Assembly (NCBI GenBank): GCA_017743475.1 | Contig: JAGHYV010000043.1 | Coordinates: 1-38,763, forward strand | Origin: Roseiflexus sp. | GTDB taxonomy: Bacteria; Chloroflexota; Chloroflexia; Chloroflexales; Roseiflexaceae | DNA: 38,763 nt | Direction of reading: 5' to 3' | The notes under the pieces: model-generated | Told to the model about the DNA's origin: nothing | The model's input: the letters and a program-made list of their open reading frames with translations, nothing else | The model's database searches: none | Position numbers and translations under genes: made by a program | Shown here: piece by piece, positions 25,321 through 35,621 of the stretch | Position numbering within the stretch: the first letter of the stretch is position 1 | Layout of the letters: each line of letters starts with the position of its first letter

Positions 25321-25420
25321 GATTGCGATACGTTACCAGACACTCGACGGCTCAGGTGGCAGCAGAGTGGAACTCGACGCGCTGCCTACTGATCGCGATA
25401 CGTCACCAGACGCCCGACGG
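25321..25420. repeat. Diverged direct repeat at the end of the monooxygenase remnant
   Basis: Bases 25321-25350 and 25391-25420 match at 26 of 30 positions (GATYGCGATACGTYACCAGA and the bases after it). The second copy encodes the last residues of the broken luciferase-like gene, so the first looks like a duplicated piece of its 3' end. Confidence 0.7.
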
Positions 25421-26147
25421 CGGCGAAATTCCACGGTTCGCCAATTCCCAGAATGATATGTGTCGCACCGGCATCGACGAAGGCATCGAGGCGATCCGGA
25501 TCGCCAACGCCAATGGAGACAGTGTACTCCTGCCGGGTCACGTCCTATTTCGCAGCACCAGTTGTCGAGCGCCTGATTTTTGTGACAATAGGTTTCAGGC
25601 GGGCCAAAACCATTCCACATCGTCACGTGTTGCGCCGTCAGTTCAAGCGTGACCTTCTCACCACCGCCGCCAATTAGAATAGGCAATGGCTGACGCAGCG
25701 GCAGCGGACTCATAACGTTTCAGCCACTGTTTGATCTGCGGCAGCGCTCGCCCCAGGGCATGCAGGCGATCCAACGCCGTGCCGAATTCGTATCCATATT
25801 CGTCATGGTCGTGCTGGAACAACCCTGCACCAATGCCGAGGATCAAACGACCGCCGCTGATGCAATCATCGGTGCGCGCCGTATCGGCAGGCAGGTGCGG
25901 GTTGCGGTAACTGTTGCAGGTTACCAGGCACCCGATCTCAGCACGACTCGTCAGTGTCGCCGTGGCAGTCAGCAGCATCCATACCTTCGAAGAGAGCGCC
26001 ATTGGTGGGCCCATAGAGCAGAAAAAAGTGATCCCAGTTCCAGATCGAATCGATGCCAAGCGCCTCAACCTGACGCACAGCGTCGGCAAACGATTGGTAC
26101 GAGGCGTGCTGCGGATGCAACTGGACACCAAAGCGGATAGAAGGCAT
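25386..26147 (-). pseudogene. Frameshifted luciferase-like (LLM class) monooxygenase
   Basis: The remnant of an FMN/F420-dependent LLM-class oxidoreductase is spread over three frames. It begins at ATG 26147 with AGGAAAGGAA upstream, reading [20 protein letters not shown] and later [11 protein letters not shown]. It shifts frame near 25980 to [20 protein letters not shown] and [20 protein letters not shown]. It shifts again near 25700 to [20 protein letters not shown] and GFGPPETYCHKNQ, and once more near 25540 to TVSIGVGDPDRLDAFVDAGA, ending at TAG 25386-25388. At least three frameshifts make a functional product unlikely. The retained ribosome site and clear similarity suggest fairly recent decay. 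Confidence 0.85.
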
Positions 26148-26263
26148 GACGATTCCTTTCCTGGCAGGTCGTTGACGATCACTATCATACACGAAATTGC
26201 CCGACAATGACGCTAAGAATGATGATTCGGGCTGCGGTAAAGGCGCACCGCCGTGAATCGCTA

Positions 26264-31467: not shown

Positions 31468-32244
31468 ACGTGCTCTTTTCACAATGCCTGAAAGCGAACG
31501 TCGTCTGTTATCAGACTGAACAATAACGCCATTCCTCGTTCGCCTGCGAGCCGGGTGCAGAGTGGTATCAAGAATTGGACAGAGAGGATCAAACCAGAGA
31601 TGCATACGGTCCGGTATGCACCCGGCTGCCAGAATGACGACACAGAGGTTTCGTGCAGGCAGTAAAGCGAGAGAGCGGGCGCAGCGACCTTCTGCATGTA
31701 GTATAACGCACGCCTTTGCAAAATCAACGTTGAGGTTTGGTTATAGAGGAGAATGCGGGAAATGAAATGGAATGCATGAGCGATGAAAACGCAGGTGATT
31801 ACTAAAGCCAACGAGATCAAGTGAACAAACACGGCACAATAACAAAACTGTTATCATTTCGTTCACATGTTGATCCTTGTCATCAGAAGAATGACATGAT
31901 ATGTCAATTGCAGGGTACGCATATCCACACAGCGCAACGCACCAACATCGCGAATCTCATTAATCGTCGCTACTACAAGTCTGATTGTGCTGCGCTCTTC
32001 GAGCGCCATATTTGGCTGCGGCACGACCGACGTTGTGCTACGAAAGATATTCCAGCTGATTGCATTGCTGAGACTACCGCAAGTAAAAATCTCCTCACCG
32101 CAGAAACCTAGCGGACGCAGAGAGCGATTGACAGAAAGCGCTGCGCACCTGAAGTCTCTCTGTAGTGTGCGTTTTTGTCGTGAATTTATTGCTTATCAAC
32201 AGACTGTCAGATATTGAACATCCGTACGACACAAGGAGGCCCCA
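31468..32244. other. Long intergenic region without a supported gene
   Basis: About 780 bases lie between the start of the BTAD regulator and the chemoreceptor. It is more AT-rich than its neighbours. I see no conserved protein, RNA gene or palindromic repeat. The right end holds the strong AAGGAGG ribosome site of the chemoreceptor (32233-32239). Confidence 0.5.
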
Positions 32245-34500
32245 ATGCTGGAAACGATCTCTCCCACTCGCTCGCTGAGCACCCGTCTGGCTCTGTTCAC
32301 GATTGCCACGGCGATTACGGCAATGCTGGGGCTGACTATGCTCACCAACGCAGCAGCAACGGAGCACACCATCGCCACAGCGCGTCACCAGATCGATACA
32401 TAGGCACTCAACGGGATCGAGCGCATAGAAATGTATCTTTAGGATCGACGCTCCGGTATTGCGTTGACTGCGCAACTCCCCCTCGTTCGTGCGATGCTCG
32501 AAAACCAGGAAAACCCCGAGGCGCGCGAGCGGGGTCAATTCGTCATCAATGCGGTACGGAACACCTTCAACTACGATACCATATCGTTACTGAATATATC
32601 GGGCAAAACAGTGCTGAGCACCAACCCTGGCAAGGTCGGGCAGGATCGCAGCCAGCGACCAGAGGTGATCAATGCACAACGCGGTGTGCCAGCAATGTCA
32701 GACGTCGCTACCGATCCGGACGAAGAGCAGGTGTTTCTCCATTTCACTGCTCCGGTCTACGGATTGAACAAACAACAGATGATCGGCATCGTTGATGGAC
32801 GAGTCGCACTCGACGAGATCCACCGATTGGTGGCATTAGACAAAAATCGCAGTGGTGCAGGCAGTTACAGCGTCATTGTTGATCGCCATGGTGTCCGCAT
32901 CTCTGTCCCGGATTTCCCGCAACTCCTGTTTCAGCCAGTGGCGCCGCTGGCGCCGACCGTGGCTCAGGAGATGATCGACACCCGTCGTTTTGGCAGCAAT
33001 ACCGCAGCGCTGATCCGGCAATCGTCCTCGATGCCTGAGGTCATGGAGAGCATCAATCTTCTCAATCAGCGCGCTGAAGAACGTCTTTTCTTCAAGGGAG
33101 CGCTTAACTCCGGCGAAGAAGGCGAATCGGTCATTCGCAGGCTGCGCTCGGCAGACTGGTACTACATCCATCGTGTGCCGATCGAGCAGTTCTACGGCGT
33201 GGTGCGCGCCCAGACAAACTACGCCATACTGGTGACGATCATTACTGCGGTAGTTGCCATCGTGGTCACCCTCTGGTTTGTGCAGCGGTCGTTGCGCCGA
33301 CCGCTGATCCAGCTGGTGGAGACGGCGAGTGCAATTGCCAGAGGCGACCTGAGCCGACGTTTACAGATGCAGCGGCGTGACGAGATCGGCATCCTCGCCA
33401 ACGGCTTCAATACAATGGCAGATGCTCTGGAAGCGCGCATCACCGAAGCTCAGGCAGCAAAAGAAGAAGCGCAGCGTTCGCAGCGTGCCGAAGCCGAAGG
33501 GCGCGCATCGCTCGAACGCAGCGTCGCAGAATATCTGACGTTTGTACAGCGGGTGGCGAATGGCGATCTTTCCCAAACCCTCGCCATTGATCGCAACGAT
33601 GCCCTGGGACAGTTAGGCATTGGTCTCAACAAGATGGTTGAAAGCCTGCGCGCTATGGGGCGCCAGTCTCAGGAAGCGGCCAATGCCATTGCCAAGGCTG
33701 CAGCGCAAATCCTGATCACCACCACCCAATAGGCATCGGCGGTCAACGAACAATCAACTGCTGTTGCTCAGACCATGGCAGCGCTTGACGAAGTACGCGC
33801 AATTGCACGACAGACTGCCGATCAGGCTGATCATACCGCGCGCGACGCACAGGCAGCGCTGACCGTTGCGCAGCAGGGGATTGCTATTGTGGAAGAGACA
33901 GTGCGGAGCATGACCGACATTCGTCAGCGCGTCGAAGGAATCGCGCAAACCATCCTGTCGCTTGCGGGGCAGGCGCAGGCGATCAACACAATTACCGGCA
34001 CAGTTTCCGAACTTGCCGATCAGTCGAACCTGCTCGCACTCAATGCCGCCATCGAAGCGGCACGCGCCGGTGAGCAGGGGAGAAGCTTCTCCGTTGTGGC
34101 GCAGCAGGTGCGCGACCTGGCAGAGCGCAGCAAACAGGCGACCGTTCAGGTTCGCTCGATCTTGGGAGACATCCAGAAATCAACCCAGGCAGCCGTGACG
34201 GTGACTGAAGAAGGCGCCCGGCGTGTTGACGCTTGCAGTCAACTGGTCAGTCAAGCAGGCGACGTTATCCACAGGATCGCTGGCGAAGTCGAAAACGGCG
34301 CGCAGATTAACGTGCAAATGGCAGCCAGTGCGCGTCAGGCAACCGTCGGGTTGGAGCAAATCGGGCAGGCGCTGCTTTCGATTCAGAAGGCAGCTTCAGA
34401 AACGCTCACCAGCACCCGTCAGGCAGAGCGTGCTGCGCAGAACCTGAATGCACTGGCGCAGTTGCTCCAGCAGATGGTTGCCGTCTACCGGCTAGCATAA
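32245..34500 (+). pseudogene. Methyl-accepting chemotaxis protein with three in-frame TAG codons
   Basis: A single reading frame of 752 codons encodes a complete chemoreceptor, interrupted by TAG at 32401, 32440 and 33730. It has a first membrane helix (about 16-38), an extracellular Cache-like sensor region, a second helix (about 326-348), a HAMP domain, a second HAMP-like segment, and a signalling domain whose hairpin tip reads [20 protein letters not shown]. There is no frameshift, and the ribosome site AAGGAGG is intact. Each TAG falls where glutamine (CAG) would fit, for example TTTQ-TAG-ASAVNEQ. TAG is used as an ordinary stop elsewhere in the window (ybaB, recR, the FHA protease), so this is treated as a pseudogene unless readthrough is shown. 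Confidence 0.8.
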
Positions 34501-34506
34501 GCATCA

Positions 34507-35487
34507 TCACCGATACCCATGCGGATGACGGCGATGCCATTCCCAGGCGCTTTCGATGATCTGTTCCAGACGCGGGAAGCGCGGCGACCAGCCGAGTTCG
34601 TTGCGGATCTTCTCCGACGAAGCGATCAGGATCGCCGGATCGCCAGGGCGCCGTGGACCAAACTCATACGGAATGGGGTGACCAGTTACCTTCCGTGCCG
34701 TTTCGACAACCTCCAGATTGGTGAAACCGTTGCCGTTGCCCAGGTTGTATGCACGACTGCCCAGGCGATCAAGGGCTTCGAGCGCCAGAATGTGCGCCTG
34801 AGCCAGATCGAGCACGTGGACATAGTCGCGCACGCATGTGCCATCCTTCGTCGGATAATCATTGCCGAAAATGATTACCTTCTCACGCTGACCAAGCGCA
34901 ACCTGGAGCACAATCGGGATCAGATGCAGTTCCGGCTCGTGATGCTCCCCGCGGTCGGGCGTGCCGCCAGCAGCGTTGAAATAGCGCAGACAGGCGTACT
35001 TCAACCCGTAGATCCGCTCGAACCAGTAAAGCATCCGTTCGATGAAATATTTCGACTCACCATACGGCGAACCCGGCACAATCCGTTCATCGGCATCGAT
35101 TGGGATGGTTGCCGGATCATCGAACAGATTGGCGGTGGACGAGAGAATGAAGCGCCCTACGCCATGCGCAACTGCCTGTTCCAGCAGGTTTGCTGCTGCG
35201 ACCAGATTGTCGCGCAGATATTTGAGCGGGAGTTGCATGCTCTCTCCCACCAGCGTAAATGACGCAAAGTGCATAATACCGTCGAACCCGCGGTGATCGC
35301 GAAACAGGCGTGCCACTGCGTCGAGATCGCGCAGATCGCCTTCAACAAAGGCAGCACCAGATGGCACGGCTTCGCGATGACCCTGATAGAGATTGTCGAA
35401 CACGACGACATCGTGACCGGCTGCAAGAAGTTCTGCGGCGCAGATGCTTCCGATATAACCAGCGCCTCCGGTAACAAGGATTTTCAA
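34507..35487 (-). CDS. galE: UDP-glucose 4-epimerase
   Basis: GalE interconverts UDP-glucose and UDP-galactose, using bound NAD. The product is an extended short-chain dehydrogenase with the NAD motif GGAGYIG (7-13), the catalytic Ser116/117 region in LSSTAN, and YGESK (Tyr142, Lys146). The start is taken as TTG 35487 because GGAGG lies six bases upstream and the NAD-binding strand begins at once, giving 326 residues, normal for the family; the frame is open 24 codons further. It ends six bases from the chemoreceptor frame on the opposite strand. Confidence 0.93.
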
Positions 35488-35520
35488 GGCGAACCTCCGT
35501 AGCAAGGACGAATCGGGCAC

Positions 35521-35529
35521 AGTATAGCA
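35521..35529 (-). promoter_or_regulatory. Possible extended -10 promoter of galE
   Basis: The minus strand reads TGCTATACT about 34 bases before the TTG start, identical to the sequence upstream of the kinase gene at 7911-7919. A clear -35 was not found. Confidence 0.5.
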
Positions 35530-35621
35530 CAGGCAGCCCACAATCGCGACTATGTACAACGTGCGCCTTTTATGCTATGCTACCAGAAAGGTATGACATT
35601 GCTTCGTTCAGGGACAGAGCT

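Follow-up and report, generated by a model that had tools for sequence, protein, structure and literature searches.

The gene at positions 32245 to 34500 of the window (the whole stretch of DNA analysed here, 38,763 nucleotides from a Roseiflexus sp.) is very probably a recently inactivated orphan chemoreceptor gene, which we call mcp1, and the likeliest cause of its inactivation is disuse of one chemosensory pathway. The window corresponds to contig C26 of the source genome G000, a 4.97-Mb draft in 206 contigs and the one genome of the source species in the analysis. It was compared with its closest relative G002, a complete genome of 5.80 Mb that we take to be Roseiflexus sp. RS-1, and with two further Roseiflexus genomes, G003 and G004; G001 and G005 were included in the operon comparison. 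The gene-by-gene comparison of G000 with G002 covered 282 genes, and for it about 27% of the G000 sequence and about 16% of that of G002 were read. A dispersed element some 175 bp long was seen in G000 (C56, about 49040-49217), with about 45 or more matches in G002 at 71-87% identity.

The mcp1 frame and its three TAG codons

The features of the locus are the following:
32234..32239, plus strand: Shine-Dalgarno motif AGGAGG, read directly, 5 bases 5' of the ATG at 32245
32245..34500, plus strand: mcp1, orphan methyl-accepting chemotaxis protein gene, probable pseudogene here; the intact G002 orthologue has 751 aa
32401..32403, plus strand: TAG at codon 53; CAG in G002, G003 and G004
32440..32442, plus strand: TAG at codon 66; CAG in G002, G003 and G004
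33730..33732, plus strand: TAG at codon 496, inside the conserved TTTQQASA and directly 5' of the signalling domain; CAG in G002, G003 and G004
33847..34386, plus strand: MCPsignal domain (PF00015), sequence intact, 3' of all three TAGs
34507..35559, minus strand: intact neighbour, putative sugar epimerase-like gene (GalE-type, as read from its sequence), outside any chemotaxis operon

Since this neighbour belongs to no chemotaxis operon, mcp1 is classed as an orphan receptor. A sequence-only reading had described a frame with no frameshift, an intact start and ribosome site, and TAG codons as its only lesions, and direct inspection agrees: the frame comprises 752 codons including the terminal TAA, codons 53, 66 and 496, each a TAG, are the only stops within it, and no indel is present. 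With three in-frame TAGs, the G000 copy is not the single intact frame of a methyl-accepting chemotaxis protein. Profile matching nevertheless scored the MCPsignal domain at 126 bits in the window frame versus 122 bits in the G002 orthologue, where a HAMP region (PF00672, residues 346-397, in two stretches) lies between the membrane part and the signalling part. As predicted from the frame, the product would now end after 52 residues, little beyond the first membrane helix, so that no receptor would be made. Internal starts could in principle yield separate useful fragments from the frames of 429 and 255 codons left open after the second and third TAG, for instance a soluble signalling domain from the ATG at 33775, but no ribosome site is evident by eye before 33775 or 32464, the third TAG cuts HAMP off from the signalling domain, and the relatives have no split gene of this kind; we give such a use of fragments a negligible probability. 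Elsewhere in the window, the stretch 25336-26188 (minus strand) is split over at least two frames and looks frameshifted, its G002 counterpart being a single frame of 297 aa; by eye its putative product is flavin-dependent oxidoreductase-like.

Ancestral state of mcp1 and selection on the gene

The G002 orthologue (G002:C1:1835723-1838005) occupies the same locus, with 92% gap-free protein identity, and the DNA alignment extends without gaps over all 2256 bp at 90.1%; its frame is open, whereas the copy in the window is interrupted by the three TAGs. Intact orthologue frames count 766, 756 and 815 codons in G002, G003 and G004, respectively. In all three relatives codons 53, 66 and 496 read CAG, and the incomplete G005 copy encodes Q at sites 53 and 66. 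The lesions are thus absent from the orthologues, the glutamine proposed for each site is borne out by the alignment, and the comparison points to three CAG-to-TAG (C-to-T) transitions on the window lineage after its split from G002.

The absence of indels and the restriction of stops to glutamine sites had been held to speak against random decay. The pattern itself stands, but the argument drawn from it is weak, because mcp1 has 53 CAG codons and its decay is too young for many indels. In G002 mcp1, 53 of the 76 single-transition routes to a stop (about 70%) are CAG-to-TAG, so that finding all three stops at CAG in a Gln-rich gene is unremarkable (P ~0.34), and the Gln/TAG specificity of the stops is mostly composition. 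Their clustering is real and beyond chance: three nonsense changes within mcp1 have a probability of about 6e-6 under a uniform genome rate, which means that the gene is decaying or that its stops are tolerated. A C-to-T hotspot at CAGG was looked for and not found, the changes at CAGG amounting to 2.4% against an average of 6.4%. A G follows all four verified CAG-to-TAG sites (32401, 32440 and 33730 in mcp1, and C171:4222); 39% of G002 CAG codons precede G, which gives a post hoc P of about 0.02 for four out of four. The base after a TGG-to-TAG site (C56:136729) is also G.

Against G002, mcp1 as a whole has a dN/dS of 0.107; the stretch from the second TAG to the third gives 0.122 and the part beyond codon 496 gives 0.052. 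The genome median, taken over 260 genes, is 0.115. These low values imply that the loss is young and give no proof that the gene works; a signal of relaxed selection is not expected, since a recent loss leaves too little time for it. When the outgroups G003 and G004 were used to polarise the changes, 22 nonsynonymous and 44 synonymous ones, together with the 3 nonsense changes, fell on the window lineage, and 24 nonsynonymous and 20 synonymous ones on the G002 lineage. Under a simple neutral model, in which the neutral share of the branch is roughly 7 to 18% and at most 26%, 0.35 to 0.92 stops are expected and at least two further stops have a probability of about 0.05 to 0.23; by this model the three stops would lie somewhat above the neutral expectation for so young a pseudogene, though within its reach. 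This, and the small number of additional amino-acid changes on the window lineage, weigh somewhat against the reading of mcp1 as a pseudogene. Base composition was also compared: GC3 is 0.644 in G000 and 0.692 in G002 over the 282 genes, their differences comprise 16,051 GC-to-AT versus 9,228 AT-to-GC, and in polarised mcp1 the GC-to-AT excess sits on the window lineage, which suggests an AT-ward drift in that lineage.

Lesions in the chemosensory pathway

Members of the Chloroflexales glide on surfaces, their genomes have led to the prediction of a chemotaxis system, and imaging of a relative showed chemoreceptor-like arrays (PMC7332563). Genomes of the genus hold at most three MCP genes. In G000, a second receptor gene, mcp2, belongs to an operon on contig C171 in the order cheW, mcp2, cheA, response regulator, small protein, cheW, cheB, cheR. 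Compared with the complete G002 orthologues, mcp2 has lost one base and gained one at a distance of 37 nt, the intervening stretch holding two TGA, and cheA has a 4-nt deletion and cheR a 1-nt deletion, while no stops or frame breaks were found in mcp2, cheA, cheB and cheR of G001, G003, G004 and G005 over the compared stretches. The CheW domain of the C171 CheA scores 32.8 bits in a frame of 307 codons; in the relatives the domain reaches 53-58 bits and the frame 857-885 codons. The third receptor gene, mcp3, lies in the Che cluster of C150, where both it and cheA are intact. The closest paralogue of mcp1 is mcp2, with 59% identity over 399 gap-free residues from the HAMP pair to the C-terminus; this far exceeds its similarity to mcp3 (35% identity over 268), and mcp1 therefore most likely signalled through the C171 CheA. 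Because mcp2, cheA and cheR of the sole operon with a matching receptor are broken as well, one chemosensory pathway appears, from these gene structures, to be eroding in G000. Disuse of that pathway would account for breaks in mcp1, mcp2, cheA and cheR next to a second Che cluster that stays whole.

By hand curation, about 10 of the 282 genes are really broken in G000 compared with G002: mcp1, mcp2, cheA, cheR, phoU, an ABC ATPase, one of two accA copies, an acyl-CoA dehydrogenase-like gene, a hybrid histidine kinase and one further gene. Lesions thus affect 4 of 9 pathway genes versus about 6 of 273 others (hypergeometric 9e-5, post hoc on the hand-curated set), a statistic that is indicative only, because C26 and C171 were picked on account of the finding. 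The phoU-family gene lies beside cheR (G000:C171:4057-4713) and has CAG changed to TAG at codon 56 (C171:4222), the rest being intact with 95% identity to G002. Internal TAGs were also noted in other coding-looking frames: a putative membrane gene (G000:C168:40268-41431, two TAG), a xylose-isomerase-like TIM barrel whose Pfam domain spans the stop, probably at a Trp (G000:C13:72813-73802), a putative clostripain/NHL gene that has a frame change too (G000:C56:244190-245962) and one further frame (G000:C149:2314-3381).

Published work has shown that a large share of assembly pseudogenes are erroneous calls in the sense of being many in number (PMC11017572), and the lesions in G000 could likewise be consensus errors or reflect a strain mixture in the bin, living cells carrying the intact gene. 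The fragmentation of the draft and the single-base deletions seen in several other G000 genes fit this explanation, and the false pseudogenes of Cooley and Wright 2024 (PMC11017572) similarly combine internal stops with deletions of a single base, again in draft sequence. Unlike in those cases, however, the lesions in G000 cluster by gene and by pathway, and uniform errors would not put three substitution-type nonsense changes into mcp1. The frameshifted accA on C56 had been considered as proof of assembly error; this was weakened by a second, intact accA on C73, which makes the break tolerable, so that it need not be an error. Overall we regard artefact as unlikely, and the lesions of mcp1 and C171 are presumably fixed in a living population. 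A real and recent loss is favoured because the lesions cluster by pathway and no suppressor was found. The very recent loss through C-to-T changes offered as one reading of the sequence is thus upheld by the CAG codons of the relatives, by a dN/dS in the normal range and by the breaks in the partner genes.

TAG decoding in G000 and the fate of mcp1

The other reading had been low-level amber suppression or read-through, giving truncated and full-length receptors. Low dN/dS downstream of each stop in mcp1 is compatible with it, as is the G after all four verified sites, and in-frame stops with low dN/dS have been reported as widespread in bacteria and interpreted as possible read-through (PMC7918605). 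The genes of Belinky et al. 2021 (PMC7918605) resemble mcp1 in their in-frame CAG-to-TAG changes and low dN/dS across the stop, but mcp1 has three stops, these are confined to a single lineage, and its presumed partner genes are broken in the same genome; for these reasons loss is favoured over read-through. Low dN/dS is, moreover, equally expected straight after a loss, and a full-length receptor would need three serial read-throughs, whose probabilities multiply. The decoding apparatus also argues against suppression. A suppressor tRNA had been proposed as a check: no CTA anticodon was found among 44 tRNA genes detected with the Rfam tRNA model and typed with ARAGORN in this draft genome, which could miss one. 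A tRNA-Ile-like gene (G000:C6:35925-36036) has an unusually long variable arm; its anticodon is TAT by ARAGORN and GAT by eye. RF1 is neither lost nor weakened: both RF1 and RF2 are open, contain GGQ and are nearly identical to those of G002. TAG is not rare as a terminator and, as had been noted for the window, serves as a normal stop: of 923 genes predicted in G000 it ends 233, and of 641 in G002 it ends 162, 25% in both. Nor are internal TAGs tied to one residue, since they replace Gln in mcp1 and phoU and Trp (TGG) in the ABC transporter ATPase at C56:136729. Genome-wide, internal stops in ABC domains include TGA as often as TAG (2 TAG and 2 TGA in G000; one TGA in G002). Expression of mcp1 through suppression or read-through is, on this evidence, very improbable.

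A genome-wide tolerance of TAG had been considered on account of several in-frame TAGs in real genes and, initially, no TAA. It was dropped in view of the intact RF1, the lack of a CTA tRNA, the TAG at Trp and the even count of TAG and TGA in ABC domains; the TAG share expected from transitions is already about 0.60. The coding-potential scan for stops inside genes mainly returned adjacent genes and provided leads only. A frame matching G002 703152-704549, in which C-to-T changes of mixed type had made four stops, is no parallel case but a false upstream extension of a downstream gene, and other short or antisense frames with internal stops were discounted as likewise spurious. That a general amber read-through near TAGG keeps a trace of full-length receptor, the nonsense mutations acting as reversible pathway switches, we likewise hold to be very improbable.

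With mcp1 read as a young pseudogene, the glutamine-only stops, the absence of indels and the low dN/dS call for caution, for together they are the look of young decay in a Gln-rich, GC-rich gene and not of suppression. As a pseudogene, mcp1 is ordinary. It has some value in that it would represent an early stage of pathway-level loss, in which one of two Che systems is disappearing from a Roseiflexus lineage, receptor and kinase going together while selection is still visible in their sequence.
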